Positions 8,990 to 23,855 of a stretch of DNA of 43,043 nt are shown piece by piece. Both the position numbers and the translations under genes were made by a program. The stretch spans positions 1 through 43,043 of the forward strand of contig CAISEZ010000145.1 in the NCBI GenBank assembly GCA_903884535.1, read 5' to 3'. The DNA is from an uncultured Verrucomicrobia subdivision 3 bacterium (lineage in GTDB: Bacteria; Verrucomicrobiota; Verrucomicrobiia; Limisphaerales; UBA11358). Numbering within the stretch: position 1 is the stretch's first letter; each line of letters starts with the position of its first letter. The notes beneath the pieces were generated by a model. It was not told the origin of the DNA. It made no database searches and saw only the letters and a program-made list of their open reading frames with translations.

Positions 8990-9892
8990 ATGAACACACC
9001 CATCATCGAAATCCAAAACCTCACGCGGCGCTACGGCAAGCTGGATGCCGTGGACGGTCTTTCGCTCACCGTGCAGCCCGGCAAATGTTACGGCTTTTTC
9101 GGCCGCAACGGCGCGGGCAAAACCACGACCATCAAGTGCCTGCTGAATCTGCTCCGGCCCGATTCCGGCACCGCGCGCGTGTTCGGCCTCGACCCGCGCA
9201 CGGACGAAGTCGCCGTCAAATCGCGGCTCGCGTATGTGCCGGACATGGTGGCGTTTTATCCGTGGATGACCGTGCGCACCACGCTGGAATATTTTGCTTC
9301 CTTCCGCCAACACTGGAACCGCGACATCGAAAACGATTTGCTGAACCGCTTCCAGCTCGACGCCGATAAGAAAACCACGAGCCTCTCGAAAGGCCAGCGC
9401 ACGCAGCTGGCGCTCATCAGCGCGATTTGTCCCGAACCGGAGCTGCTCGTGCTCGACGAGCCGACGAGCGGGCTTGATCCGATTGTCCGCCGCGAATTCA
9501 TCGAGACCGTGATCGGCGCGTATCAATCCGGCGATCCCGGACGCCGCACGGTTTTTGTTTCCACCCATTTGATTTCCGAGTTCGAGGGTTTGATTGACGA
9601 ATTTACCATCATCGAGCAAGGCCGCGTTCTGCTGACGATGGAGGCCGATGCCGCGCGGGACCGGTTCCGCAAAATCCGCGCCCGCTTCGCGCAGCCGCCA
9701 ACCGCGCTCAACCTGTCCGGCGCGTTAAACGTCAAGCACAGCGGGCGCGAAATTGAAATCCTCGCCAACGGCAACAGTGAAAAATTACTGGCGAAATTAA
9801 AATCCTGCTCGCCGGAGGAACTGCGCTGCGAATCGTTGTCGCTGGAGGAAATTTTTGTAGCTTCAGACATTTTGAAAAAGGTGCAAGCATGA
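8990..9892 (+). CDS. ABC transporter ATP-binding protein
   Basis: Nucleotide-binding subunit of 300 residues. It has a Walker A (GRNGAGKTTT) near residues 40-49, an ABC signature (LSKGQRTQLALISA), a Walker B (LLVLDEPTSGLDP) and a switch histidine in FVSTHLISE. A C-terminal extension of about 80 residues follows, as in drug/peptide exporters of the CcmA/YtrB type. I chose the ATG at 8990, just after the GntR stop; the reading frame is open further upstream, but that part overlaps the regulator and does not look like protein. Its stop overlaps the start of the permease gene (ATGA), indicating translational coupling. Confidence 0.92.
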   Translation: MNTPIIEIQNLTRRYGKLDAVDGLSLTVQPGKCYGFFGRNGAGKTTTIKCLLNLLRPDSGTARVFGLDPRTDEVAVKSRLAYVPDMVAFYPWMTVRTTLEYFASFRQHWNRDIENDLLNRFQLDADKKTTSLSKGQRTQLALISAICPEPELLVLDEPTSGLDPIVRREFIETVIGAYQSGDPGRRTVFVSTHLISEFEGLIDEFTIIEQGRVLLTMEADAARDRFRKIRARFAQPPTALNLSGALNVKHSGREIEILANGNSEKLLAKLKSCSPEELRCESLSLEEIFVASDILKKVQA

Positions 9893-12570
9893 GCGCGCTC
9901 GTCAAAAAAGAAATCCGCCTGCTGCTGCCGAGCTGGCTGGCCGTCTTGTTGCTGGAAATTGTCCTGCCGTGGTTTTCAAATGAACCGGATTCGATGTTTG
10001 CCGTGATTCCGTTCTTTGTTTTCTTTGGCACGATTATTTTGGCCGTGGATTCGTTTGGCCGGGAGTTCAGCCTAGGAACATTCCCGTCGTTGCTCGCGCA
10101 GCCGATGGAGCGCCGGCAAATCTGGCGCACCAAAATCGCCGTTTTGATTTTCGCCGCCGCGCTTATTTTCGCCGGCTTTTTTATCAGTTGCGAACTGCTG
10201 TTCCACCATGCGCTGAAACTCCCGGTTTGGGGCGTCAACCCAAAGATCATCGGCAGCGATTTTCGCCATGCCATGCTGGGCAGCGGCGTGGTGATGCTGA
10301 TCGCTCTGGTCGGCGGACTGTGGACGACGCTTTTGCTTCGGCAGGCCGCCGCCGCATTTTGGATCACATTTCTGGCCCCCGCCGGATTGTTGATGCTGAT
10401 CGTTTTATTTCTGCCTGCCAAATTGGCCAGCGATGATTACGTCGTTTTTGCACTGCTTTACAGTATGGCCGTCATTTACATCGTTGCCGGATTTTGGTTT
10501 GCGCACCGGCTGTTTCACCGGGCGCAGGATGCTGAATGGACCGGTGGCGTCATTGCCTTTTCAAAATGGCGCTATTTTGAAAATGCTGCTTCATCCACCG
10601 ATTCCACGCGGCACTGGCGGCCGCTGGCCGCGCTGGCGAAAAAGGAGCTGCAACTGCAGAGCATCACCTGGTTTTGCGCGGCGGCGCTGCTGGCGCTGCA
10701 CGTTGCGGTCATCGTGATGCGCAAAGTCCACGGCAGCTTCGAGCGGGATTCCATCGCCGGCGGCGCCTCGGAATTTTTCTGGACCTTGTGGCTGGTCATG
10801 CCGTTGATCATCGGCGGCACGGTGGTGGCCGAGGAGCGGCGGTTGGGCGTGACCGAAGCACAGTTTTGCCTGCCCGCCTCCCGGCGGCTTCAGTTCGCCG
10901 TGAAATTTTTCCCCACGCTTTTTTTTGGAATTTTTCTTGGCGGCGTCTTGCCGCTGCTGCTGGAAACTTTCGCCGCCTACTTTGGTGCGCCCAATCCGGA
11001 CTTCAATCCGTTCAAACCTGATCGTGATTTTATTGGCGCTGCGGCGTTTTTCATCGCCTTGTCGTTTGGTTTGTCCGTGGCCGGTTTTTTGGCCTCCACG
11101 CTCACGAAAAATTTTCTCCAGGCGCTGGGGGCAGTCGTCGTCATCATTATCGGCTCCGTGCTGTTCACCTCGTTCGCCGGACAATTGCATTCGTTTTTTG
11201 GTTTCTTCGGCTGGAATCCCGTTTTGACCATCGCCCTGACAATTTTGACCGCGCTGGTCGTCGTGCCGTCGCTGGCGTATCGCAATTTTATTTTTTCACC
11301 GGAACGCGAACGCGTCTGGCGGCGGAATGTTTTTGGCCTGACGGCGGCCATTTTGTTCATCTTGATTGCCAGCGCCGCGCTTTACAATCGCGTCTGGGAA
11401 ATGGTTGAGCCGGCCGAGCCGCCGCACGGGCCAGCAAAATTGTCGCTGGCCCAACCACAAACTTTGCACTGCGACAACTGGTATAACCTGCTTGTGTGCC
11501 TGCCAGATGGCCGGGTGTGGTTTGGTGATTTGCGTTATGAGGTGCCGGCGTCCAATGCGAGTCGCCTGAAATGGTTCTGGCATTATCTGTTGAGTCCCTT
11601 GCCGATCAGCAGCGGGATGCAGCGGTTCGTTGGTTCAAACTGGGTGGCGTCAACGGTTCGGCACGTAGATTTTTATGGTTATTCCAAGCCCGCACTCTCG
11701 CAAACCAAAAATCATGTTGTCGGTTACCTGGACACGGTCGGCATTCAGAAGGACGGCACGCTCTGGATTTCTGATGCGTCAAAAAACGGCGATTGGAACG
11801 GCAAGCGCATGAGTCGTTTTGGCGGCGAGACAAACTGGCAGCAGCTTGTCCGTGCGCAATACGAAGTGTTGCTTTTGAAAAATGACGGCACGCTTTGGGG
11901 CTGGGGGCCGGGCCATTTTGACTGGAGCAACCTGCTGACCAACTGGCCGAGTCTGCACGCTTACCGGCCGCATCAAATCGGCACGGATACCGACTGGAAA
12001 GAAATTTACACCAGTTGGAACAACCACGCCCGCAAAGCGGACGGCTCTGTTTGGAGCATTCGAGAGTCGGACCGGAGCTTTCAAGATGAATTGCACCTTG
12101 AAACCAATTTAGATCAGGTGTCGTTACCGACTTTGTCTCAAGGCTTCGGTGAAATGGCCTATGTCCGCCCAGACGGAACTTTGTGGATGCGCTGGCTGCA
12201 ACAAGGCAAGGACATGTATTATACGGATTTTGTGCGGGTCGGCACGGAAACCAATTGGACGAGTGTCGCCTTGAATGAGGAAAAAATGGTCGCCCTCAAA
12301 TCTGATGGCTCCTTGTGGGAATGGCGCTTCTTCAATCATTGGAACTTGAGCCAACGGGAATTGGCGGCGGCGGCCCAACAACCACCCGCACGCCTCGGCA
12401 TTCACTCCGATTGGGTCGCGATTGCCAACACTTGGCAAGCTGTGATCGCGCTCGCTGCCGACGGCAGCTTGTGGCTCTGGCCCAATCGCGAACACCCCGG
12501 CCAATCCAGCTTGCTGAAACTGCCCAAGCAGCCGGGCTTTCTCGGCAATGTTTTCAGCCCGCAGCCTTAA
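9889..12570 (+). CDS. ABC-2-type permease fused to a C-terminal RCC1-like beta-propeller
   Basis: An 893-residue membrane protein. Residues 1 to about 500 hold two sets of hydrophobic helices of ABC-2 permease type (around 15-52, 80-103, 130-205, 258-278, 298-312, 340-364, 383-465 and 482-500). From about 520 to the end there are no membrane segments. Instead there are seven copies of an Asp-Gly-x-(Leu/Val)-Trp motif spaced through the domain (DGRVW, DGTLW, DGTLW, DGSVW, DGTLW, DGSLW, DGSLW), several next to T-x-W units. This is the pattern of RCC1-like propeller repeats, and seven is the usual blade number. The start overlaps the ATPase stop by 4 bases. The fusion is unusual; by topology the propeller probably faces the outside. 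The substrate is unknown. Confidence 0.82.
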   Translation: MSALVKKEIRLLLPSWLAVLLLEIVLPWFSNEPDSMFAVIPFFVFFGTIILAVDSFGREFSLGTFPSLLAQPMERRQIWRTKIAVLIFAAALIFAGFFISCELLFHHALKLPVWGVNPKIIGSDFRHAMLGSGVVMLIALVGGLWTTLLLRQAAAAFWITFLAPAGLLMLIVLFLPAKLASDDYVVFALLYSMAVIYIVAGFWFAHRLFHRAQDAEWTGGVIAFSKWRYFENAASSTDSTRHWRPLAALAKKELQLQSITWFCAAALLALHVAVIVMRKVHGSFERDSIAGGASEFFWTLWLVMPLIIGGTVVAEERRLGVTEAQFCLPASRRLQFAVKFFPTLFFGIFLGGVLPLLLETFAAYFGAPNPDFNPFKPDRDFIGAAAFFIALSFGLSVAGFLASTLTKNFLQALGAVVVIIIGSVLFTSFAGQLHSFFGFFGWNPVLTIALTILTALVVVPSLAYRNFIFSPERERVWRRNVFGLTAAILFILIASAALYNRVWEMVEPAEPPHGPAKLSLAQPQTLHCDNWYNLLVCLPDGRVWFGDLRYEVPASNASRLKWFWHYLLSPLPISSGMQRFVGSNWVASTVRHVDFYGYSKPALSQTKNHVVGYLDTVGIQKDGTLWISDASKNGDWNGKRMSRFGGETNWQQLVRAQYEVLLLKNDGTLWGWGPGHFDWSNLLTNWPSLHAYRPHQIGTDTDWKEIYTSWNNHARKADGSVWSIRESDRSFQDELHLETNLDQVSLPTLSQGFGEMAYVRPDGTLWMRWLQQGKDMYYTDFVRVGTETNWTSVALNEEKMVALKSDGSLWEWRFFNHWNLSQRELAAAAQQPPARLGIHSDWVAIANTWQAVIALAADGSLWLWPNREHPGQSSLLKLPKQPGFLGNVFSPQP

Positions 12571-12671: not shown

Positions 12672-14282
12672 ATGCTCATCATTCGCGATCTTAAAATGAC
12701 TTTCGGCGGGCGCACGCTCTTCGAGAACGCTTCGTTTCAGGTGAATTACGGCGAACGCGTCGCGCTGGTTGGGCCGAATGGCGCGGGCAAAACCACTTTG
12801 TTTTCCATCATCCTCAAGCAGCGCGAGGCGGATGCCGGCACCATCGAACGCGATGAGTGGACGACGGTCGGCTATTTGCCGCAGGAGGCCGAGGCGCATG
12901 GCGACGAAACGATTTTGGATGTCGCCACCGGGCGCGTGGATGAGTTGCCACAGCTCGAAAAATTGCTGCATGATCTGGAAAAAGCCGGCGACGTTTCCTC
13001 CGCGCAATATCTCGAGGCGCACGCGAAGCACGACAAGCTGAACGATCCCGAAGTGGAAACGAAAGCGAAGAAGATGTTGCGCGGCCTCGGCTATCGCGAC
13101 ACGGATTTCAACCGCAAAGCGAAGGAAATGAGCGGCGGCTGGATCATGCGCGCGCGCCTCGCGCGGTTGCTCGTGATGGAACCGGATTTGTTGCTGCTCG
13201 ACGAGCCGACGAACCATCTGGATTTGCTCTCGCTGCTGTGGCTGCAGAATTATCTGAAGAATTATTCCGGTGCGCTGCTGCTGATTTCGCATGACCGGCA
13301 GTTCATGGACGAGGTCATCACGCAGGTGCATGAAATCTCCGAGCGCAAGCTGTTCGCGTATTCGGGCAATTACACCGACTTTCTCCGCCAGCGCGAAGAA
13401 CGCTACGAGCAGCAACTCGCGGCCTACAAAAATCAGCAGAAGGAAATCGCTGACTTGCAGGCATTCGCGGATCGCTTCCGTTCCATTCCGTCCAAAGCGT
13501 CACAGGCGCAGAGCAAGCTCAAGCAGATCGAGCGGCTCGAACTCATCGAGAAACCGCTGGCACCGCGCAAGCCATTTCGTTTTCAAATTCCGCCGCCCCC
13601 GCGTGGCGGTCAGCGCGCCATTTCGCTGGAAGGCATTCACATGGCCTACGGCGCGACGCAGGTTTACAAAGGTCTCGATCTCACGGTGGAGCGTGGCGAA
13701 CGCACTGTCCTTGTTGGTCCGAATGGCGCAGGTAAATCGACCTTGCTGAAAATTCTCGCGGGTGTCGTCGAGTTTCAAAAAGGCAAACGCGATCTCGGCC
13801 ACAATGCGAAGATCGGCTACTTCAGCCAACATCGTGCCGACACGCTCGACCCGGAAAAGACCGTGCTCGAAGAAGTTTTGGCCAGCGCGCCGCTCATGCG
13901 CGAAGACGAGGCGCGCGGCGTGCTCGGCTCGTTCATGTTCCGCAAGGACGACATTTACAAAAAAACGGCGATCTTGAGCGGTGGCGAAAAAAGCCGGCTG
14001 AACCTCGTGAAATTTCTCGTGGACCCGCCGAATCTGTTGCTGATGGACGAGCCGACGACGCACTTGGACATCCACACCGTCGAGTCGCTCACGCTCGCGC
14101 TGGAGCGCTACGAAGGCACGCTGGTTTTCATTTCGCACGATGTGCATTTCATCAGCCATCTCGCGACGAAAGTGCTGCACGTGAACGCCGGCACGGTCAC
14201 GCCTTACGTCGGCGGCTACGAATATTTTCTGGAGAAGACCGGCACCGCCGAGGACGCCCGCGCCGCGCTCACGGCGGGTTGA
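12672..14282 (+). CDS. ABC-F family ATPase (YbiT/YdiF-like)
   Basis: Soluble tandem-ABC protein of 536 residues, of the class that acts on ribosomes as translation factors or antibiotic-protection proteins. The first ABC domain has a Walker A (GPNGAGKTTL), signature MSGGWIMRARLARLL and Walker B LLLLDEPTNHLD. An interdomain linker covers about residues 230-310. The second ABC domain has GPNGAGKSTLLK, LSGGEKSRLNLVKFL and LLLMDEPTTHLD. No membrane domain is present. Its 3' end overlaps the convergent RND pump gene by 14 bases. It is clearly paralogous to the ABC-F gene at 21933-23855; both share the uncommon MSGGWIMRA signature. Confidence 0.9.
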   Translation: MLIIRDLKMTFGGRTLFENASFQVNYGERVALVGPNGAGKTTLFSIILKQREADAGTIERDEWTTVGYLPQEAEAHGDETILDVATGRVDELPQLEKLLHDLEKAGDVSSAQYLEAHAKHDKLNDPEVETKAKKMLRGLGYRDTDFNRKAKEMSGGWIMRARLARLLVMEPDLLLLDEPTNHLDLLSLLWLQNYLKNYSGALLLISHDRQFMDEVITQVHEISERKLFAYSGNYTDFLRQREERYEQQLAAYKNQQKEIADLQAFADRFRSIPSKASQAQSKLKQIERLELIEKPLAPRKPFRFQIPPPPRGGQRAISLEGIHMAYGATQVYKGLDLTVERGERTVLVGPNGAGKSTLLKILAGVVEFQKGKRDLGHNAKIGYFSQHRADTLDPEKTVLEEVLASAPLMREDEARGVLGSFMFRKDDIYKKTAILSGGEKSRLNLVKFLVDPPNLLLMDEPTTHLDIHTVESLTLALERYEGTLVFISHDVHFISHLATKVLHVNAGTVTPYVGGYEYFLEKTGTAEDARAALTAG

Positions 14283-17200
14283 TCGCAACGGCCATTTTAC
14301 TGCCGGTTGCGCACAGCCGACGCGAACGCCACAAAAAGTAAATCGCCGGATACACCGCCAGTTCCATGATGGTGGAGGTGATGACGCCGCCGACCATCGG
14401 CGTGGCGATGCGTTTCATCACGTCCGCGCCCGCACCGTGACTCCACAAGATCGGCGCGAGGCCGGCGATGATGACACACGCGGTCATGGCTTTCGGCCGG
14501 ACGCGTTTCACTGCGCCGTGATAAATGGCGTCGCGCAAATCGCCGGTGTGATTGAGCGCGCCTCGTTTTTTCCAGTCGGCAAACGCGAGGTCCAAGTAGA
14601 GCAGCATCACCACGCCGGTTTCGGCGTCAAGGCCGGCGAGCGCGATGATGCCCACCCAGACGGCGACGCTCAAATTATAGCCGCACAAATAAATCGCCCA
14701 GAACGCGCCGACCAGCGAGAACGGCACTGCGAGCATCACGATGGCGGTCTTGATGGCGGATTTCGTGTTCAGGAAAATGATGAGCGTAATGAGTAGCAAC
14801 GTCAGCGGCACGACGATCATCAGCCGTTCCTTGGCGCGCAACATATATTCATATTGGCCGCTCCAGAAAAGGTTGTAGCCGCCGGGTAGCTTGATGTCGC
14901 CGCGCGCCACGGCCTCGTTCACGGCCCGCATGGCCATCTGCACATACGTCCCGATGTCCACGCCGCGGATGTCCACATAAACCCACGCGTTCGGCACCGC
15001 GCCTTCGCTCTTGATGCCCATCGGGCCATCCACGACCTTCACCGTGGCCAGCTGGCCGAGCGGAATCTGCGCGCCGGTGGGCGTGGGCACAACGATGTCC
15101 TCGCGCAGCGCCCGCAGGTCGGAACGAAAATCGCGGTCGTAACGCAGATTGATTGTGTAGCGCTGCAAGCCTTCCACGGTCGTCGTCAGCGCCATGCCGC
15201 CGAGCGCGACGGACAAAACATCCTGCACATCCGCGAGCGTCAGGCCGTAACGCGCGATGGCCTCGCGATCAATTTCAAATTCAATGAAGCGCCCGCCCAT
15301 CACACGCTCGGCGAAGACGCTGGTCGTGCCGGGAACTTTGCGGACGACGGCCTCGACCTCGGTGCCGATGCGTTCGAGCGTGGCCAGGTCGGCTCCGGCG
15401 ATCTTGATGCCAACGGGGGTCTTGATGCCGGTGGACAGCATGTCAATGCGCGTGCGGATGGGCATCGTCCACGCGTTGTTAAGTCCGGGAATCTGCACGA
15501 CCTCGTTCATCGCGTCGGTCAGTTCATCCGGCGTGCGCTTGCGATGCGCGATGACTTTTCCGTCCTCGTCCTTGATGTCCACGGTGGGCCATTCGGATTC
15601 GGGCTTGAGTCGGATGGTGGTCTCAATCATGTCCAGCGGCGCAGGATCGGTGGCGGTCTCGGCGCGGCCGGCCTTGCCGAAAACCTCGGCGACTTCAGGA
15701 AACGATTTGATGAGCCGGTCGGTGACTTGCAAAATTTCGCGCGCCTTGGTCGGCGAGATGCCGGGAAACGTGGTCGGCATGTAAAGCAAATCGCCCTCAT
15801 AAAGCGGCGGCATGAATTCCGAGCCGATGTTTTGATACGGAAATAATTTCCCCGCCGTGAATGCAGCATCACGCATCTTGCCTTCGGGCAACGCACGCTC
15901 GACAATCCAATTCCATGGCAAAAACACCCACACGATAATTGCGCCGGCGCTGATGATCACCGTCCAGCGTCGTTTGATCACGAAATCCAGCAGCGGGTGG
16001 TAAATCCAAATCAACAGACGATTGAGAGGATTCTTTTCTTCCGACGGAATTCTTCCCCGGATGAACCAGCCCATCAGCACTGGCGCGAGCGTGATGGAGA
16101 GCAGCGCGGCGGCGGCCATGGAATACGTTTTGGTGAACGCCAGCGGCTTGAACAAGCGGCCTTCCTGTTCCTGCAAGGTGAACACCGGCAGGAACGACAC
16201 CGTGATGACGAGTAGTGAGTAAAACAGGGTTGGTCCGACCTCCACCGCCGCGTCGCGGATAATTACCCAGTGCGGCTTTTTGCCTTGATCGCGTTCGAGA
16301 TGCTTGTGAGCGTTCTCGATCATGATGATGACCGCATCCACCATCGCGCCGATGGCAATGGCGATGCCACCGAGCGACATGATGTTTGAGCTGATGCCCT
16401 GGCCGAACATCACGAGCAAGGCGATCAAGACGGCGACCGGTAAAATGATGATGGCCACCAGCGCGCTCCGCAGGTGCAGCAGAAATAGAAAGCAAACCAG
16501 CGCCACGACGATGCTTTCCTCAATTAGTTTGTCCTTCAACGTCTTTACTGCGTGGTCAATCAACTCCGAACGATCGTAGTTCACTGTGACTTTCACATCG
16601 GCCGGCAACGCTTTCATCGCAGTTGCAAGCCGGGCTTTCACATCCTGAATGACCTGATGCGCATTGGCTCCGTAGCGCACCAGGACAACGCCGCCGACGG
16701 TTTCGCCTTCGCCGTTTGCCTCGGCGATACCGCGACGCATGTCGGGGCCGAACTGGATGGTCGCCACGTCGCGCAACAGGATGGGCACGCCTTTGTCACC
16801 GATGCCGACGGCGATTTTCTTCAGGTCGTCGAGATTCGTGACGTAGCCTTTGACGCGCAGGATGAATTCCCGTTCCGCCAGTTCTAGCGAACGTCCACCT
16901 ACTTCGCCATTGCTACGTTCGATCGCGGCGCTGACGTCTTTCAACGCGAGGTGGTAGGCGCGCAGTTTCGTCGGATCCACCGTCACTTGATATTGCTTCA
17001 CGAAGCCGCCGACGCTCGCGACTTCCGCCACCCCGGGCACGGACGTGAGCTGATATTTCAAATACCAATCCTGCATCGAGCGCAACTCGGCGAGATCGCG
17101 ATTGGTGGAGTTCAGGGAATACATGAACGCCCAACCGACGCCCGTGGCGTCCGGTCCGAGCGAGGGCGTGACGCCCTTCGGCATTTGGGCGGTGATGCTG

Positions 17201-17544
17201 CTGAGATATTCCAGCACGCGGCTGCGCGCCCAATAAGGGTCCGTGCCGTCCTCGAAAATCACATACACGAACGAGAAGCCGTAAAACGAATAGCCGCGCA
17301 CGGTTTTCGCCTTCGCCACCGAAAGCATTTTCGTCGTGATCGGATACGTGACCTGGTCCTCGACAATGTTCGGTGCCTGACCTTCCCATGGCGTGTAGAT
17401 GATGACCTGCGTGTCGGAAAGATCCGGAATGGCATCGAGCGGAATGTGCCGTGCCGCATAGACGCCACCGAATACCAGCATCACCGTGGCGAGCAGCACG
17501 AGGAACTTGTTCCGCAGTGAACAATCTATGATGCGCTGGAGCAT
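14269..17544 (-). CDS. CusA/CzcA-type heavy-metal efflux RND pump, Cu(I)/Ag(I) class
   Basis: Inner-membrane proton-driven pump of 1091 residues that would export metal ions through a periplasmic adaptor and an outer-membrane channel. The N terminus has a first helix and DAIPDLSDTQVIIYTPWEG, typical of heavy-metal RND proteins. The TM4 proton-relay block AIGAMVDAVIIMIEN (about 397-411, with Asp403 and Glu410) is of the Cu/Ag-exporting (HME-4, CusA) type. The three metal-relay methionines known from E. coli CusA have counterparts at Met589 (LLYMP), Met639 (LDMIE) and Met702 (IDMLS). The gene follows the adaptor by 12 bases. No outer-membrane factor gene is in the window. Substrate inference: monovalent copper or silver, not Co/Ni/Zn. 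Confidence 0.92.
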   Translation of the reverse strand: MLQRIIDCSLRNKFLVLLATVMLVFGGVYAARHIPLDAIPDLSDTQVIIYTPWEGQAPNIVEDQVTYPITTKMLSVAKAKTVRGYSFYGFSFVYVIFEDGTDPYWARSRVLEYLSSITAQMPKGVTPSLGPDATGVGWAFMYSLNSTNRDLAELRSMQDWYLKYQLTSVPGVAEVASVGGFVKQYQVTVDPTKLRAYHLALKDVSAAIERSNGEVGGRSLELAEREFILRVKGYVTNLDDLKKIAVGIGDKGVPILLRDVATIQFGPDMRRGIAEANGEGETVGGVVLVRYGANAHQVIQDVKARLATAMKALPADVKVTVNYDRSELIDHAVKTLKDKLIEESIVVALVCFLFLLHLRSALVAIIILPVAVLIALLVMFGQGISSNIMSLGGIAIAIGAMVDAVIIMIENAHKHLERDQGKKPHWVIIRDAAVEVGPTLFYSLLVITVSFLPVFTLQEQEGRLFKPLAFTKTYSMAAAALLSITLAPVLMGWFIRGRIPSEEKNPLNRLLIWIYHPLLDFVIKRRWTVIISAGAIIVWVFLPWNWIVERALPEGKMRDAAFTAGKLFPYQNIGSEFMPPLYEGDLLYMPTTFPGISPTKAREILQVTDRLIKSFPEVAEVFGKAGRAETATDPAPLDMIETTIRLKPESEWPTVDIKDEDGKVIAHRKRTPDELTDAMNEVVQIPGLNNAWTMPIRTRIDMLSTGIKTPVGIKIAGADLATLERIGTEVEAVVRKVPGTTSVFAERVMGGRFIEFEIDREAIARYGLTLADVQDVLSVALGGMALTTTVEGLQRYTINLRYDRDFRSDLRALREDIVVPTPTGAQIPLGQLATVKVVDGPMGIKSEGAVPNAWVYVDIRGVDIGTYVQMAMRAVNEAVARGDIKLPGGYNLFWSGQYEYMLRAKERLMIVVPLTLLLITLIIFLNTKSAIKTAIVMLAVPFSLVGAFWAIYLCGYNLSVAVWVGIIALAGLDAETGVVMLLYLDLAFADWKKRGALNHTGDLRDAIYHGAVKRVRPKAMTACVIIAGLAPILWSHGAGADVMKRIATPMVGGVITSTIMELAVYPAIYFLWRSRRLCATGSKMAVAINPP

Positions 17545-17556
17545 GGCGGCTTTTCC

Positions 17557-19209
17557 CTATTTCACCGGCACCAAATCCATTTCGCATTTCGGGCATTTGC
17601 CCGGACGATCCGAAATGACATCTGGGTGCATCGGGCAAGTGTAGAGCTGCTTGGCCGCCGGTTTCGCAGCGGAACTCGACGGTGTTGGCGCTTGTTCCAT
17701 CACTGGAATCAAAGTCATTGCGCACAGCGGGCATTTGCCCGGCTTGTCCTCGTGAACGCTCGCGTGCTCGGGCATCGGACAGGTGTAGTAAAGCACCTTG
17801 CCACCGGGCTGTAGCTTCTTCAGTGCCGACGGTGTGACCGGCACCAGCGCCATGCCGCAAATCGGACAATTGCCGGCGTGATCATAAATAATCGAAACGT
17901 GCTCGGGCATCGGGCAAACGTAAACCGTCGCCTCCGGTTCAGACTTCGTGGGCGCGGCGGCAGTATCATTCGTGGAAATGTCACCGGCCATTTCCAGATT
18001 CGCTGCGGATGTTGGCCCGCGCATTTTTTCAATCGCCTCGCGCAACTGGCTCTCCGAATCCAGCAAAAATTGTCCCGATGTCACCACGCGCTCGCCGGCA
18101 TTCAGGCCGCTCAAAACCTGGCAAAAACCATTTTCCGCCTCCACGCCCAGTGCCACATCGCGCGCCTCGAACTTGCCGCCATCCAAGGCGATGAAAACGG
18201 TGTTCTTCGCGCCGCTGCGCAGCACCGCCTCGGCCGGCACCAGCACGGCTGACGGCTCCAGTTCCGCGTGAATTTGCGCGGAAACAAACATGCCCGGCTT
18301 CAAATAATAACCCGGATTTTCAAACTCCAGCCGCACTTTTGCCGTCCGCGTCTTTTCGTCCACGGTCGGATAAACAAACGTCACGCGCCCGCGAAACTCG
18401 CGATCCGGCATGGACGTGATCTTCACCATCGCCTCCTGGCCGAGCTGCACAAACGCCAAGTCCTGTTCATAGACCTGGGCGATCACCCACACGATGCCGA
18501 GGTCGGCGATGCGGTAAAGCTTGATGCCCGCGTCCACCATCTGGCCCTGCACGGCGTTTTTTTCGATGACGAAACCGGAGATCGGCGCGGGCACGGTCAA
18601 GGTCTTGAGCACCGCGCGATTGCTTTCGATCTCGGCGATCTGCGCGTCGGACACGTCAAAATTTTTCAAGTTGCGGATGGCCGTCTGGCGCTGCGCGATG
18701 TTGCTTTTGAAATTTTTGAATCGATTGGTGACCGTCTTTAAGAATTCCACCTCCGCGTCGTAAACGTCCGGCACGTGCACTTCAAACAGCGGATCGCCGC
18801 GATGCACGAGCTGGCCAGTGGCGTCCACGTCCAGTTTTTCGATCCAGCCCTTGAAATGCGTCGTCACGTCCACCAGCGCCGTCTCGTTGAAATCAATCGT
18901 CCCCACGGTGCGGATGGTTTTGCGCAGCGGGCCGCGTTGGACTTCCGCCGTGCGCAAATTCATGTTTTGCCGCGTCGCCGCGTCCACCGCAATCGCCGAT
19001 GAACTGGCGGTATTGGAACCTGCCCCGGCGGCGCCGTTGCGGATCGCCGTGAGCTTCATGCCGCAGATCGGACAATTACCGGGATGATCCAAGATAACCT
19101 GCGGGTGCATGCCGCAGGTATAAAGTGTTTTTGAACTTTCGCCGCGCGTCTCCGCCGCCAGCCAAAGCAACGCCGAGAGAACGATCAAAATGGAAACTAC
19201 TTTTTTCAT
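17557..19209 (-). CDS. CusB-like periplasmic adaptor with four heavy-metal-binding ribbons
   Basis: Membrane-fusion protein of 550 residues linking the RND pump to an outer-membrane channel. A signal peptide covers about residues 1-23. A heavy-metal-binding ribbon (HMBD, pattern Y-x-C-x-M-H/P ... C-P-x-C-x-M) follows at about 29-56. The adaptor core covers about 95-395, with barrel-sandwich, alpha-hairpin and beta-barrel parts. Three further ribbons lie at about 429-458, 473-503 and 522-549. E. coli CusB has none of these ribbons; one is common in other phyla. Four copies, three of them after the adaptor core, is unusual and suggests a tethered metal-binding tail that feeds the pump or an exit channel. 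It lies between the YHS protein and the pump gene. Confidence 0.9.
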   Translation of the reverse strand: MKKVVSILIVLSALLWLAAETRGESSKTLYTCGMHPQVILDHPGNCPICGMKLTAIRNGAAGAGSNTASSSAIAVDAATRQNMNLRTAEVQRGPLRKTIRTVGTIDFNETALVDVTTHFKGWIEKLDVDATGQLVHRGDPLFEVHVPDVYDAEVEFLKTVTNRFKNFKSNIAQRQTAIRNLKNFDVSDAQIAEIESNRAVLKTLTVPAPISGFVIEKNAVQGQMVDAGIKLYRIADLGIVWVIAQVYEQDLAFVQLGQEAMVKITSMPDREFRGRVTFVYPTVDEKTRTAKVRLEFENPGYYLKPGMFVSAQIHAELEPSAVLVPAEAVLRSGAKNTVFIALDGGKFEARDVALGVEAENGFCQVLSGLNAGERVVTSGQFLLDSESQLREAIEKMRGPTSAANLEMAGDISTNDTAAAPTKSEPEATVYVCPMPEHVSIIYDHAGNCPICGMALVPVTPSALKKLQPGGKVLYYTCPMPEHASVHEDKPGKCPLCAMTLIPVMEQAPTPSSSAAKPAAKQLYTCPMHPDVISDRPGKCPKCEMDLVPVK

Positions 19210-19303
19210 AAATCAACGGGCCGATCTTGGGTCGCCAACGAAAAACGGCGCGCGGGGAAAATTCTCCGCGCGCCGGACACAAGCTTGTTGCCCCAGCCGC
19301 CGG

Positions 19304-19636
19304 TTATTTCTTGTCCGCCGCGCGGATCTTGGCGACATATTTGTCGGGGTTCTTGTCAAAATCCTTCTTGCAGCCCTTGCAGCACAATTTCACTTCCTGA
19401 TCCTTGTAGGCGAAGGTGAACGGCTTGCCCATCTCGCCGAGTTTTTCGCCGGAGACCGGGCAGGTCGTAAGCAAATCCGGCGTGGCGTTGGTGCTGACCT
19501 CGTTTGACATGGTAGTGGTCATGCCGACCATACAGCAGGATGGCATCGCGTTATCCGCTGCCGTGAGTTTAGTGGAGAGGGCCGCAACGCCGAGGGCGCA
19601 GACGGCTAGGAGTGTGTATTGGATGGTCTTTTTCAT
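19304..19636 (-). CDS. Secreted YHS-domain metal-binding protein
   Basis: A 110-residue exported protein with an N-terminal signal peptide (MKKTIQYTLLAVCALGVAAL). Its C-terminal YHS/TRASH-like domain contains CPVSGEKLG and LCCKGCKKDFDKNPDKYVAKI, giving four cysteines suited to metal binding. I start it at the ATG at 19636; an in-frame TTG 9 bases earlier is less likely. It is the first gene of the leftward metal-efflux operon, 94 bases before the adaptor gene. A role as periplasmic metal chaperone or scavenger for the pump is inferred from this position. Confidence 0.82.
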   Translation of the reverse strand: MKKTIQYTLLAVCALGVAALSTKLTAADNAMPSCCMVGMTTTMSNEVSTNATPDLLTTCPVSGEKLGEMGKPFTFAYKDQEVKLCCKGCKKDFDKNPDKYVAKIRAADKK

Positions 19637-20090
19637 GTTTGGCAAAGGTTAATAGTTATGCTCGTGTTCTTATTGAACGATTGGCTTACCCCGCCGGAAC
19701 AGAAATCCCGCAAATTTTTTTCTAACCTTTCCGGCACCGGCTTACAAGCTACCCATTTGCCCAGAATACGCAAGCGGACGGCTCATTCATGGATGATTTT
19801 GGCCGGAGCGGACAAAAAGCACCATGCCGAAGTGCAAGGCGGACGCTGAAACCCGATGAAATGCCTTAAAAACGTGCCATTTCTCTTTGGCATGTCAGCT
19901 GCATACCACCATTCAGCGGTTTTGAGTCAATGCAGTCTGCCCGCAGCCTACTTGCAGCTTCCTTCTTCCCGTCCCGGCCGGTGGATCTACCTCCAGGCCG
20001 GGGCAGTTTTTTGCGTGGTTTCCGGTCAGCCGGGGTATTACAGCTACCAGCAAAGCAATGATGCGATGCCTTAACCAAAAGAAACCAAAT
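19637..20090. other. Divergent intergenic region of the metal locus, with a possible ECF promoter
   Basis: These 454 bases separate the leftward efflux operon from the rightward sensor/sigma genes and should hold promoters for both. Rightward, GGAAC at 19696-19700 followed after 17 bases by TTTCTAA at 19718-19724, with a T-rich spacer end, resembles an extracytoplasmic-function sigma promoter (GGAAC-N16/17-CGTCTAA type). I see no equally good leftward match. A short open frame at 19856-20074 shows no signal peptide or family motif, and I do not call it. Confidence 0.35.
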
Positions 20091-20438
20091 ATGAAAAATA
20101 CAGTTCTCCTCCTCGGTGCGGTCGTGATCGCGTTTACCCTTACCAGTTTTGCGGCCGACGCGCTGCGCTCGCCGCGCGCCCAAGCCAATGAAATCAAGAT
20201 CGTGAACAGCACCGACGCCACTCCGGCGGTCACGGTGGCTTATGTCGCGCCGAACACCACGCCGCTTTCGCCCCGTGCCCAGGCCAATCAAATCAAGGTG
20301 GTCAAAGGCGTGGTGAGCGAACGGAATCCGTATGTGGAATGCCGCAACGGAATGACCGGCAGCAGCCCGAAAGCCATTACCACTTGCATCCAAACCATGA
20401 GCCAGTCCGGCTGCGTGTCGCTCGCGATGCAAAAATAG
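20091..20438 (+). CDS. Small exported protein with paired SPRAQAN motifs, function unknown
   Basis: A 115-residue protein with a cleavable-looking signal peptide (MKNTVLLLGAVVIAFTLTSF). The mature part has two near-copies of a motif, SPRAQANEIKIV and SPRAQANQIKVV, about 38 residues apart. A C-terminal segment has three cysteines and three methionines (VECRNGM, TTCIQTM, SGCVSLAM). The ATG at 20091 gives the signal peptide directly. I do not recognise a named family. Because it heads the rightward gene set opposite a metal-efflux operon and is Cys/Met-rich at its end, a periplasmic metal-binding role is possible but unproven. Confidence 0.6.
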   Translation: MKNTVLLLGAVVIAFTLTSFAADALRSPRAQANEIKIVNSTDATPAVTVAYVAPNTTPLSPRAQANQIKVVKGVVSERNPYVECRNGMTGSSPKAITTCIQTMSQSGCVSLAMQK

Positions 20439-20533
20439 CCAGCCATGGATCACGGCCTCATCAACCGGGTTGTCCCGGCACCCCAAACCTGTTAAACCAC
20501 GGGCGGCGGGAAAACTACGCCGCCCTTCAGCTT

Positions 20534-20851
20534 ATGAAAGAAAACAACCAACATTCTGATGTCGCACAAGTTAGCGCACTCTTGCGTCAGGCCCGCACAT
20601 CGCCCAGTCTGCCGCCGCGCTTCCAGCAAAATGTCTGGCGGCGCATCGAGGACGCCGAAGCGCCCGCAAAATCCGCCTCGTGGCTAGATGCGCTGGCGGC
20701 GTTGATTTTGCGTCCACGCTTCGCGATCACCACTGCCGCCGTGTTGCTGCTCGCCGGTGTTTCCGCCGGCACGCTCGAAGGCCGGCAACTGGCGCGACAC
20801 GATGCGCAAATAAATTACCTCACCGCCGTGGCGCCGCATGCCGTGCGCTGA
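20534..20851 (+). CDS. CnrY-like single-pass anti-sigma factor (putative)
   Basis: A 105-residue protein. The cytoplasmic N-terminal region of about 65 residues includes SLPPRFQQNVWRRIE. One transmembrane helix (about 66-84, FAITTAAVLLLAGVSAGTL) and a short periplasmic tail follow. This topology and size match small anti-sigma factors such as CnrY of the Cupriavidus cnrYXH system, which hold an ECF sigma factor through a short N-terminal segment. The gene is followed after 3 bases by a periplasmic-sensor-like gene and then an ECF sigma gene, the same order as cnrY-cnrX-cnrH. The start is the ATG at 20534; the longer open frame upstream is not protein-like. Sequence similarity to CnrY itself cannot be claimed by eye. 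Confidence 0.68.
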   Translation: MKENNQHSDVAQVSALLRQARTSPSLPPRFQQNVWRRIEDAEAPAKSASWLDALAALILRPRFAITTAAVLLLAGVSAGTLEGRQLARHDAQINYLTAVAPHAVR

Positions 20852-20854
20852 ACC

Positions 20855-21346
20855 ATGAATCGTTCGCTCGTCATCCTGATCGGCGCGCTGGCGCTGGGCG
20901 CGGCGATTTTTGGCGGCGCGTATGTGGCCAGTCAGCGCGCCACCGTGTTGTGCTGCGCCCAACCGGAGGATGATTTGAGCTGGCTGCGCACGGAATTTCA
21001 TTTAAGCGATGCGGAGATGGCGCGCATCCGTGAACTGCATGAAGGCTATTTGCCGAAATGCGCCGAGATGTGCAAATTGATCGCCGATAAAAAAGGCGAA
21101 GTCGCCGCCCTCGTTGGCACCAGCACCAATCTCACCGCCGAGGCGCAAACAAAATTGAATGAAGTTGCCGAGTTGCGCGCGCAATGTCAGACGCAAATGC
21201 TGCAGCATTTTATCACGGTCAGCCAGGCGATGCCGCCGGCGCAAGGTCAGCGTTACCTCGATGAGATGAAACGACTCACACTCGGCAATCACGAGCAGAT
21301 GGAACAATCCATGTCGGGCGACACCGGCCATGAGCATCATCACTGA
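20855..21346 (+). CDS. CnrX/ZraP-like periplasmic metal sensor
   Basis: A 163-residue protein anchored by an N-terminal helix (about 5-26), with an all-helical periplasmic domain. The domain runs from LSWLRTEFHLSDAEMARIRELHEGY through a long helical hairpin to LQHFITVSQAMPPAQGQRYLDEM. This is the layout of the periplasmic heavy-metal-sensor family (PF13801-like) that includes CnrX. Candidate ligands are His49 (REL-HEG), the paired cysteines near residues 33-34 and in KCAEMC, His118 or so in LQHF, and a His-rich end (GHEHHH). It starts 3 bases after the putative anti-sigma gene and overlaps the sigma gene by 17 bases, suggesting coupled translation of sensor and sigma factor. Confidence 0.72.
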   Translation: MNRSLVILIGALALGAAIFGGAYVASQRATVLCCAQPEDDLSWLRTEFHLSDAEMARIRELHEGYLPKCAEMCKLIADKKGEVAALVGTSTNLTAEAQTKLNEVAELRAQCQTQMLQHFITVSQAMPPAQGQRYLDEMKRLTLGNHEQMEQSMSGDTGHEHHH

Positions 21347-21929
21347 CGCCGAGCCATCGCCGGAAGCGCAAGACCGGGCGGACATGGAAAAGTTGCAGGC
21401 CGGCCACGATGCGGCGCTCAACGATTTGATGGAGCGCCACGCCACGCCGCTCTTTCATTTTCTCTGCCGGATGGTTGGCAATGAAGAGGACGCCAACGAT
21501 CTCGCACAGGAAACTTTCGTCCGCGTCTTCAAATCGCGCGACAGTTTTCGTCTCGAGCAAAAATTTTCGACGTGGCTGTTCACCATCGCGGCGAATCTGG
21601 CGCGGAATCATTTTCGCTGGCGCACGCGGCATCCGAACCTCTCGCTCGACGCGGAAAATGCAGAGACGGAACAAACGCTCGGCAGCACGTTGCCGGCAAA
21701 TTCACCGACCCCAAAGGAAGCCGCCCTCACCGGTGAACGCGCGGTCGCCGTCCGCGCCGCCGTGAAAAATCTGCCCGAAGATTTGCGCGAGGCGATTGTG
21801 CTTTGCGAATGGGAAGAACGCAGCCTCGCGGAGGCGGCGACAATTTTAGAAACCACGCCCAAGGCCGTGGAATCGAGGCTTTATCGCGCCCGCGGAATTT
21901 TGCGCGAGCGGCTGAAAACCTGGTTGTAA
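21330..21929 (+). CDS. ECF sigma factor of the putative CnrH-like metal-response module
   Basis: RNA polymerase sigma factor of 199 residues. Region 2 covers about 25-100: LNDLMERHATPLFHFLCRMV, the core-binding EEDANDLAQETFVRVF, and promoter-melting FSTWLFTIAANLARNHFR. A linker follows, then region 4 at about 140-195 (LPEDLREAIVLCEWEERSLAEAA, helix-turn-helix TTPKAVESRLYRAR). No region 3 is present, as expected for ECF sigmas. It is last in the order anti-sigma, sensor, sigma, overlapping the sensor gene. Likely targets are the efflux operon and its own operon; a GGAAC-containing candidate promoter lies upstream at 19696. Confidence 0.9.
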   Translation: MSIITDAEPSPEAQDRADMEKLQAGHDAALNDLMERHATPLFHFLCRMVGNEEDANDLAQETFVRVFKSRDSFRLEQKFSTWLFTIAANLARNHFRWRTRHPNLSLDAENAETEQTLGSTLPANSPTPKEAALTGERAVAVRAAVKNLPEDLREAIVLCEWEERSLAEAATILETTPKAVESRLYRARGILRERLKTWL

Positions 21930-21932
21930 CAT

Positions 21933-23855
21933 TTATGGCGCTTCGGGCTGAACCCCGTCAAATTCCGCCAACTCCTTGTTGGCCGCCTCCCATTGCGCAG
22001 TGGCCACCGGCAACCGGTCGGTCACTTTCATCAACTCGCGGTTGATATGCGTGGCGCGGCCGTTGGCGTAGGCTTCGGGCTTTTCCAGTTCCAAGGCCAG
22101 TTCGCCCTCGCGCACTTCCAAGTCGGCGATTTCTTTTTCGAGCGTGGCGATGCGTTTTTGAATTTCCGATTTTTTATTCGAGCGTGCCTGACGTTGCGCG
22201 GCCTCGAGGCGCTTCTGTTCCTTGCGATCCACTTTTGGCTCGGAGCTTTTTTGCCCAGCGGAAGCGACCTGACTGGAACTCGTCAGCGCCGATCGCGCGG
22301 ACTGCTGTGTCTTGTCCAAATAATATTGGTAGCCGCCGCCGAAATGTTTGAGTTGTCCCGCCTCGACGCGCACGACGTGCGTGGACAGTGCGCGGATGAA
22401 ATGCACATCGTGGCTGATGAAAACCAGCGTGCCTTGATATTGCTTCAACGCGACAATCAGTGCGTCAACACTGGCTAAATCCAAGTGCGTCGTCGGCTCG
22501 TCCATCAACAAAAGATTCGGCGGATCGAGCAGCAACTTCACGAGTGCAAGCCGGCTTTTTTCACCGCCACTCAATACACTGACCGGTTTGTAAATGTCGT
22601 CGCCGCGAAAAAGAAAACTACCGAGCACCGTGCGAATAGCCTGTTCGGTGATGCGTTGCGGCGTATCCATCGCCTCCTGAAAAACCGTGTGCTTGGGATT
22701 CAACATTGCCGCGCGATGTTGCGCGAAGTAGCCGTATTTCGTGTTGTGACCGAGCTTGTGCACGCCCGAAATCGGCTTGAGCACTTCCGCGAGCAGTTTC
22801 AACAACGTGGATTTTCCCGCGCCGTTCGGCCCGACGAGCACGATGCGCTGATCGCGTTCCACTTCGAAATCCAGATTTTCGTAAAGCAGCTTCACCGGTG
22901 GGTGATCCGGTGTCGGCTGCGCCGATTCATCTTCCAAAATGTGCGCGGCCGGCGTCGCAATCTTGCTGTAGCCAAACGAAATTTTTTCCAGCGTGATCAC
23001 GCGCTGACCGCTGCGCTGCGGTTGTGGAAATCGAAAACCCATCGTGGATTCCGGGCCGTCGGGCACTTCCACCATGTCTTCCTTGATGCGCTCGATTTGC
23101 TTGCGCTTGCTTTGCGCCTGCGAGGCTTTGCTGGCTTTCGCACCAAAACGGTCGGCGAATAATTGCAGCCGGTCAATGTCGCGCTGTTGCGCTTTCGCCG
23201 TCGCGATGAGCGTCGCTTCCATCGCCGCACGCTGCACCAGATACTCGTCGTAATTGCCCGTGTAGCGCATGATCTTCGACGCACGCAACTCCGCGATGTG
23301 CGTGCACAGATTATTCAGAAATTCGCGATCATGCGAAATCAGCAGAATCGCGCCCGGATAATATTTTAAATAATCCTGAAACCAGATCAGCGTTTCGAGG
23401 TCGAGATGATTCGTCGGCTCGTCGAGCATCAGCAGATCAGGTTCATCCGCGAGCAGTCGCGCCAGATGCGCGCGCATGATCCAACCGCCGGACATTTCGC
23501 GCGCGGGTCGGTCGTAATCCGTCAGCTTGAAACCGAGGCTGTTGAGAATCTGCTTCACCTTCGCGACGAACTGGCCGTCGTGCTCGTGCTCGTGCGGGAT
23601 CGCGACTTCCAAAACGGTTTCGTTGCCGGCGGGTTCGCTTTCCTGCGGCAGATAGCCGACGCGCGTGCCGCGAATGAACGACACGCTGCCACCATCCGGC
23701 TCCTCTTTGCCGAGAATGATTTTGATGAGCGTGGATTTGCCCGCGCCATTCGGCCCGGTGATGGCGATGCGGTCGCCCGACATGATGTTGAACGAAACGT
23801 CGTCAAACAGTTCGCGGCCACCAAATGATTTAGAAAGTCCGGCAACAGTTAACAT
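21933..23855 (-). CDS. ABC-F family ATPase with C-terminal coiled coil (Uup/YheS-like)
   Basis: Soluble tandem-ABC protein of 640 residues. ABC1 has GPNGAGKSTLIK, MSGGWIMRAHLARLL and LLMLDEPTNHLD. The linker lies at about 235-320. ABC2 has GPNGAGKSTLLK, LSGGEKSRLALVKLL and LLLMDEPTTHLD. After about residue 530 comes a charged region and a predicted coiled coil (KSEIQKRIATLEKEIADLE) like the C-terminal domain of Uup/YheS. It ends 3 bases from the convergent sigma gene. Expected role: ribosome-associated translation factor. Together with the ABC-F at 12672 it brackets the metal locus. Confidence 0.9.
   Translation of the reverse strand: MLTVAGLSKSFGGRELFDDVSFNIMSGDRIAITGPNGAGKSTLIKIILGKEEPDGGSVSFIRGTRVGYLPQESEPAGNETVLEVAIPHEHEHDGQFVAKVKQILNSLGFKLTDYDRPAREMSGGWIMRAHLARLLADEPDLLMLDEPTNHLDLETLIWFQDYLKYYPGAILLISHDREFLNNLCTHIAELRASKIMRYTGNYDEYLVQRAAMEATLIATAKAQQRDIDRLQLFADRFGAKASKASQAQSKRKQIERIKEDMVEVPDGPESTMGFRFPQPQRSGQRVITLEKISFGYSKIATPAAHILEDESAQPTPDHPPVKLLYENLDFEVERDQRIVLVGPNGAGKSTLLKLLAEVLKPISGVHKLGHNTKYGYFAQHRAAMLNPKHTVFQEAMDTPQRITEQAIRTVLGSFLFRGDDIYKPVSVLSGGEKSRLALVKLLLDPPNLLLMDEPTTHLDLASVDALIVALKQYQGTLVFISHDVHFIRALSTHVVRVEAGQLKHFGGGYQYYLDKTQQSARSALTSSSQVASAGQKSSEPKVDRKEQKRLEAAQRQARSNKKSEIQKRIATLEKEIADLEVREGELALELEKPEAYANGRATHINRELMKVTDRLPVATAQWEAANKELAEFDGVQPEAP

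Follow-up and report, generated by a model that had tools for sequence, protein, structure and literature searches.

A CnrYXH-like ECF sigma factor module and a divergent CusA-type efflux operon preceded by copies of one ECF-type promoter element in a Verrucomicrobiota bacterium

The window analysed here is the full 43,043-nt stretch of DNA from an uncultured Verrucomicrobia subdivision 3 bacterium, and positions refer to it unless another locus is named. It contains three co-directional forward-strand genes: one for a CnrY-like putative anti-sigma factor of 105 aa (20534-20851), one for a CnrX-like membrane-anchored periplasmic sensor of 163 aa (20855-21346), and one for an ECF sigma factor of 199 aa (21330-21929), the sensor and sigma genes overlapping by 17 nt. 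A first-pass annotation had likened the order and topology of 20534-21929 to CnrYXH, and this is borne out, with all three open reading frames in place and encoding a single-pass small protein, a PF13801 sensor, and an ECF sigma factor. The pump unit is divergent from the triad and is transcribed in the order YHS-like gene (19636-19304), cusB (19209-17557), and cusA (17544-14269). Between the triad and the pump unit lies the gene for a small secreted Cys protein (20091-20438, + strand), which, like the YHS-like gene (19304-19636, − strand), was missing from the earlier description of the locus. The module is flanked by two genes for ATPases with paired ABC_tran domains and an ABC_tran_Xtn linker, an ABC-F layout (12672-14282, + strand, and 21933-23855, − strand); the two proteins are about 60% identical to each other. 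Further out, 9889-12570 (+ strand) encodes an ABC-2 type permease; its C-terminal part is similar to an RCC1-like domain, at a score of 29 bits that falls short of the model cut-off.

The first gene of the pump operon encodes a secreted YHS/TRASH-like protein that scores 19.0 bits against the YHS model, below the Pfam cut-off of 30.3. It is followed by the gene for a membrane fusion protein of CusB type, which contains four heavy-metal-binding (HMBD) stretches, and by that for a CusA-type RND pump, which matches TIGR00914 at 1148 bits (cut-off 701) and has Escherichia coli CusA as its best solved relative. M573, M623, and M672 of E. coli CusA align with M589, M639, and M702 of the window pump, D405 and E939 are retained as D403 and E975, and the TM4 stretch GGIAIA(I/V)GAMVDA is common to both proteins; the CusA methionines and the Cu/Ag-type TM4 motif claimed in the first-pass annotation are both confirmed. 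CnrA has S/A/E at the places of the Met triad. Judged by its sequence, the divergent pump belongs to the Cu/Ag branch of the CusA/CzcA heavy-metal RND family.

The triad is also present in 34 of the 37 fully covered CusA-family proteins linked to the module in relatives (39 proteins of at least 600 aa were found). In two of the three exceptions (L118 and L127) the protein is a second pump, the locus having a triad pump as well; the third (L053) is a fragment of a pump gene divided between two frames. Among 30 pumps with no sensor within 10 kb, hand-picked from the same 59 genomes, 11 carry the triad (two of 20 picked from a listing and nine of 10 picked because they looked CusA-like), a figure that is no unbiased rate. 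Met-triad pumps occur also in genomes that lack the sensor. The triad thus appears enriched beside the module, though it is not confined to the neighbours of the module. The window's own genome encodes a second triad CusA-type pump (G000:C17:10367-13504, − strand), which lacks the strict promoter pattern described below; there is a sigma-70-family gene at a distance of 9.6 kb.

The sensor matches PF13801 (Metal_resist) at 34.0 bits (cut-off 29.2), has an N-terminal hydrophobic stretch, and is the sole PF13801 match at E 0.001 in the 3.9-Mb assembly. Identification as CnrX by sequence comparison was tried and abandoned: a PDB search with the single sensor gave nothing useful, and with a sensor profile, NccX (E 0.036) came below coiled-coil and other proteins. 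Because of this ranking, sequence cannot by itself decide the identity of the sensor, and the decision came from a fold search. CnrX is the top structural match of the predicted sensor fold (Foldseek probability 1.00, TM 0.75, E 0.03), although no Foldseek match of the model reached E 0.001. The matches that follow include ZraP and, lower in the ranking, CpxP. The structural match of 20855-21346 to CnrX, whose absence would have counted against the first-pass annotation, was accordingly recovered.

The candidate metal site of the sensor differs from that of CnrX. All 35 sequences of one set carry C69-x3-C73 and C111-x3-M115, as do all 51 sequences of an alignment whose rows, mostly full-length and including the window, were hand-chosen from a longer list; H62 and H118 are near-invariant. 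The metal ligands of CnrX we take to include H42, H46, E63, and H119. M123 is described as a further CnrX ligand (PMC7689651). The sensor lacks counterparts of H42, H46, and M123, with V122 at the place of M123 in 35 of 35 sequences. The H119 place corresponds to H118, and the E63 place to E63 or H62, depending on the alignment. The earlier claim of a ligand set other than that of CnrX, put forward as Cys/His, is therefore upheld in a more specific form, as a Cys/Met set of C69, C73, C111, and M115. Among 29 more distant relatives, C111-x3-M115 is present in 12 only, and 15 have His72 beside Cys73. Many distant sensors of the phylum (L227-L249) have Cys-x2-His-Cys without the Met, and most of these still adjoin a sigma gene. 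Such sensors may answer to another metal.

The most hydrophobic 19-mer of the small protein, at residues 63-81, is its predicted membrane helix and leaves a short periplasmic end. An AlphaFold2 model (pLDDT 76.7, pTM 0.32) has helices at residues 7-20, 30-42, 49-58, and 61-99, the last running through the membrane, and the helices 7-20 and 30-42 are predicted to be cytoplasmic. In an alignment of 71 sequences, again hand-chosen from a longer list and mostly full-length, F30, V34, G79, and Y95 are invariant and the motif PPRF-x3-VW-x-RI is nearly so. The small protein had no Pfam or NCBIfam match over cut-off, a PDB search found no relative, and profile comparison with CnrY detected no similarity. 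CnrY is described as embracing CnrH with two helices (PMC4598750, PMC7406223). The small protein is thus alike to CnrY in layout and topology but not in sequence, and its position and topology suggest that it is an anti-sigma factor. The sigma factor has Sigma70_r2 and Sigma70_r4_2 domains over the Pfam cut-off and matches CnrH at E 2e-16 (31% identity over 182 residues), but among solved structures it is closer to SigW, SigH, and RpoE. In a mutual information analysis of 75 small-protein/sigma pairs, the N-terminal part of the small protein, which makes up 59% of the columns, supplied 18 of the top 50 pairs. Because periplasmic residues rank among the top pairs, this signal reflects subgroup history.

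With E limits of 1e-3 for the sensor and 0.01 for the small protein, protein searches returned 1177 and 797 relatives, respectively. The sensor is encoded in 32 of 59 genomes, its own included, and in 24 of 36 within the genus. A scan of 84,980 species with the pattern MPP[EDA][QE]GxRYL, which misses distant forms of the sensor, gave 73 loci, whose record titles name Verrucomicrobiota, a rankless 'bacterium', or, once, Proteobacteria; an evenly drawn sample of 288 genomes from the phylum contains 44 that match. These 73 loci and 34 fetched stretches were reduced to 85 non-redundant loci, excluding the window itself. Neighbouring genes were clustered with a codon score, and clusters chained by HMBD repeats were left out of the counts. 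The small protein is encoded directly 5' of the sensor in 76 of the 85 loci, the sigma factor directly 3' of it in 78, and all three genes occur in order in 71, which excludes a chance arrangement. The synteny with Cus-type genes that had been anticipated in relatives was likewise found: in the fetched flanks, of up to 10 kb, a CusA/CusB-like pump is encoded at 48 of the 85 loci, and at 32 of the 48 loci that have at least 5 kb on both sides. No CusA/CusB match was present in the fetched stretch at the other 37 loci, 21 of which have less than 5 kb on at least one side; the remaining 16 have at least 5 kb on both. For comparison, the window's own genome has 15 other sigma-70-family genes that exceed the TIGR02937 cut-off, and one of these has a TIGR00914 match no more than 10 kb away.

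Each of the two divergent units is preceded by an ECF-type promoter element. A matrix of a fixed 29 bp (GNGGGNTTTN, 8 bp, and CGGGGTATTAC) was built from 22 sites that precede the small secreted gene. At a threshold of 9 bits, it identifies exactly two sites in the window, one before each unit. The site of the sensor/sigma operon (20013-20041, + strand) scores 31.1 bits and is one of the training sites; the copy before YHS-cusB-cusA (19683-19711, − strand), which lies 75 nt 5' of the YHS start codon, scores 27.9 bits and is outside the training set. At 8 bits or more, and counting the window, the matrix matches 23 of 42 YHS upstream regions (0.24% of shuffles), 21 of 51 anti-sigma upstream regions from loci in which the small gene was undetected (0.2% of shuffles), and four of 54 CusB upstream regions. 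Few sites before CusB are to be expected if YHS leads the pump operon. Over the 85 loci (1.28 Mb) there are 74 matches of at least 20 bits and none on the reversed sequence; 58 of the 74 are no more than 450 nt 5' of the small gene (26), YHS (20), or the anti-sigma gene (12), and 16 fall elsewhere.

A strict pattern of the element has two matches in the 3.9-Mb assembly, both at the module, and a reversed control pattern has none; eight one-mismatch matches elsewhere in the genome score lower (0.9-22.2 bits). Over the 59 genomes, the strict pattern matches 51 times and the control pattern nine times. Within the genus, it is present in 20 of 24 sensor-bearing genomes and in one of 12 others (Fisher p = 2.3e-5). 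That single sensor-less genome is 81% complete, and its element precedes YHS-CusB. Outside the genus there is no such association, the strict pattern occurring in one of eight genomes with the sensor and three of 15 without. In two genomes whose sensor is on another contig (G009 and G027), the element precedes YHS-CusBA by 71-72 nt; both have nearby contig ends, and the sensor-to-element distance there is only apparent. In a genome of another family (G047), the element precedes a gene for an outer membrane efflux protein (PF02321), followed by CusBA, and also a lone YHS gene, both sites being more than 10 kb from their contig ends. The occurrence of the element before pump and YHS genes on other contigs fits action in trans. 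We infer that the element is the sigma factor's own promoter sequence at both units. In G015 (L215:5588, − strand), the element lies 84 nt before a gene whose product, a secreted protein of 131 aa, contains a CPKC motif, has no Pfam match over cut-off, and is a possible further member of the regulon.

The small secreted gene is the first behind the ECF-type promoter. Its frame is open from 20058, the ATG at 20091 fits the relatives, and tblastn matches it in 26 of the 85 loci. Counting the window, all 26 upstream regions of the gene contain the element at 10 bits or more, and 22 of them trained the matrix. The protein has SPRAxxNQI repeats, a conserved C-terminal Cys, and no Pfam match, and is perhaps a periplasmic copper binder. 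Just 5' of the anti-sigma gene is a second conserved promoter-like element, TTGTCC-N17-TAAACC (20465-20498, + strand), which starts inside a CCGGG-TTGT-CCCGG palindrome. It scores at least 8 bits in 33 of 77 upstream regions and in 3.9% of shuffles, 12 of these sequences having been used to build the matrix. As a candidate for the sigma factor's own promoter, TTGTCC-N17-TAAAC was rejected, being conserved 5' of the anti-sigma gene but not at the pump; it may be a separate promoter, perhaps for basal supply of the module. Between this element and the anti-sigma start codon, the predicted leader contains a GC-rich hairpin (20501-20525, + strand). A stem of at least 8 occurs in 45 of 77 such leaders and in 68 of 385 shuffles; folding energy was uninformative, since 221 of the 385 shuffles passed the same threshold. 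The palindromic element and GC hairpin (20465-20525, + strand) are present in many loci of the genus.

Taken together, it is probable that the module is a CnrYXH-like transmembrane ECF sigma switch that has been retuned towards a soft metal, with Cu(I)/Ag(I) as the likeliest candidate, and that drives its own operon and the pump. At rest, the cytoplasmic helices of the small membrane protein would hold the sigma factor at the membrane, with the CnrX-like sensor seated on the end of the small protein that reaches into the periplasm. Cu(I)/Ag(I) in the periplasm would bind the Cys69/Cys73/Cys111/Met115 cluster of the sensor hairpin and change the sensor. In the switch direction proposed here, the signal would then pass via the periplasmic end of the small protein, loosening the putative anti-sigma factor so that its cytoplasmic helices release the sigma factor. 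If the sigma factor pairs with the 29-bp element as supposed, it would transcribe both from the copy before the sensor operon, giving positive feedback, and from the copy before YHS-cusBA, inducing the export pump.

Other signals could in principle act through the same switch. Cysteine pairs in the oxidising periplasm can form disulfides, and the invariant cysteines might form a thiol-redox switch that responds to envelope oxidation or copper-driven disulfide formation, with the pump as a downstream response. Conserved, probably periplasmic cysteines of NrsF are described as mattering for control of sigma-F in Caulobacter, which answers chromium and cadmium (PMC3511200). We consider a redox switch unlikely, however, since Met115 is conserved with the three cysteines in 51 of 51 sequences and 34 of 37 linked pumps are CusA-type, while the His72 beside Cys73 in 15 of 29 distant relatives looks like ligand exchange, unlike a disulfide. 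Cys-rich sites also bind Cd, Hg, and Zn, and the signal could be another metal, either a soft divalent ion (Cd, Hg, Pb, or Zn) or Ni/Co as for CnrX. Although CnrX is the closest fold and is described as acting on Ni and Co (PMC7689651), only H119 (as H118) and, by alignment, E63 (as E63 or H62) are kept of its ligand places. The linked pumps moreover carry the CusA Met triad that is absent from CnrA, and HMBD and YHS-like proteins are encoded nearby, which makes a different metal improbable.

A chaperone role for the sensor is very unlikely. The membrane anchor, the invariant Cys/Met residues, the fixed place between the small protein and the sigma factor, and the private promoter common to module and pump all argue against a Spy/CpxP/ZraP-like protein in a module that answers envelope stress, with copper as one cause, even though ZraP and CpxP are among the structural matches and one source names a close homologue a Spy/CpxP-family chaperone.

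On the reading preferred here, a Cu(I)/Ag(I)-responsive sigma switch, we lean towards a broader proposal, that Verrucomicrobiota possess their own class of such switches. In this class, the CnrX-fold sensor would have gained a second metal site, of Cys/Met type, deeper in the hairpin, and a private promoter code (GNGGGNTTT ... CGGKGTAW) would control linked and unlinked CusBA pumps, the Met-less Cys-x2-His-Cys relatives suggesting further retuning. CnrYXH is the studied case of metal signalling in which a membrane anti-sigma factor works with a periplasmic sensor that is a protein of its own. A Cys/Met version that is linked to copper-type pumps and widespread in a little-cultured phylum bears on how one fold is retuned between metals. 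The defined promoter element makes the regulon readable from sequence, at least within the genus, and the module offers a compact three-gene copper or silver reporter. An ECF group for the window sigma factor may already exist in the ECF classification; the 29-bp ECF-type element before both divergent units is new here.

The module shares with CnrYXH, the Ni/Co resistance system of Cupriavidus metallidurans on pMOL28, the order anti-sigma, sensor, and ECF sigma (kept in 71 of 85 loci), and a membrane-anchored sensor with periplasmic helices and, in its predicted model, the CnrX fold. CnrYXH is described as controlling Ni/Co efflux in Cupriavidus (PMC7689651). Unlike CnrX, the window sensor has the invariant Cys/Cys/Cys/Met set and lacks H42, H46, and M123, and the pump is CusA-type with the Met triad instead of a Ni/Co pump (CnrCBA), and divergent rather than co-directional. 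The first-pass annotation had called the system undescribed; no description of it was found among the open-licence papers listed, as judged from titles and abstract openings, but an analogous system with a CnrY-like anti-sigma factor has been published, SigAb-AabA-AabB of Acinetobacter baumannii (PMC12153292). As described there, SigAb is a copper-responsive, autoregulated ECF sigma factor, and its partners are a small (107 aa) membrane anti-sigma factor predicted to bind like CnrY and a periplasmic protein (PMC12153292). By that description the components are alike, whereas the SigAb gene order is sigma first, the system is called Acinetobacter-specific, and heavy-metal pumps are placed in its indirect regulon (PMC12153292). 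CorE of Myxococcus, a copper-dependent ECF sigma factor, is described as sensing via its own Cys-rich C-terminal extension and not via an anti-sigma factor (PMC10141476, PMC8999054). The window sigma factor, in contrast, lacks a Cys-rich extension, region 4 reaching residue 188 of 199 with no Cys after it. Finally, the module resembles CusRS/cusCFBA of E. coli in having the same kind of pump opposite the regulator genes, but CusRS is a two-component system, whereas the window encodes a sigma factor, a putative anti-sigma factor, and a sensor.
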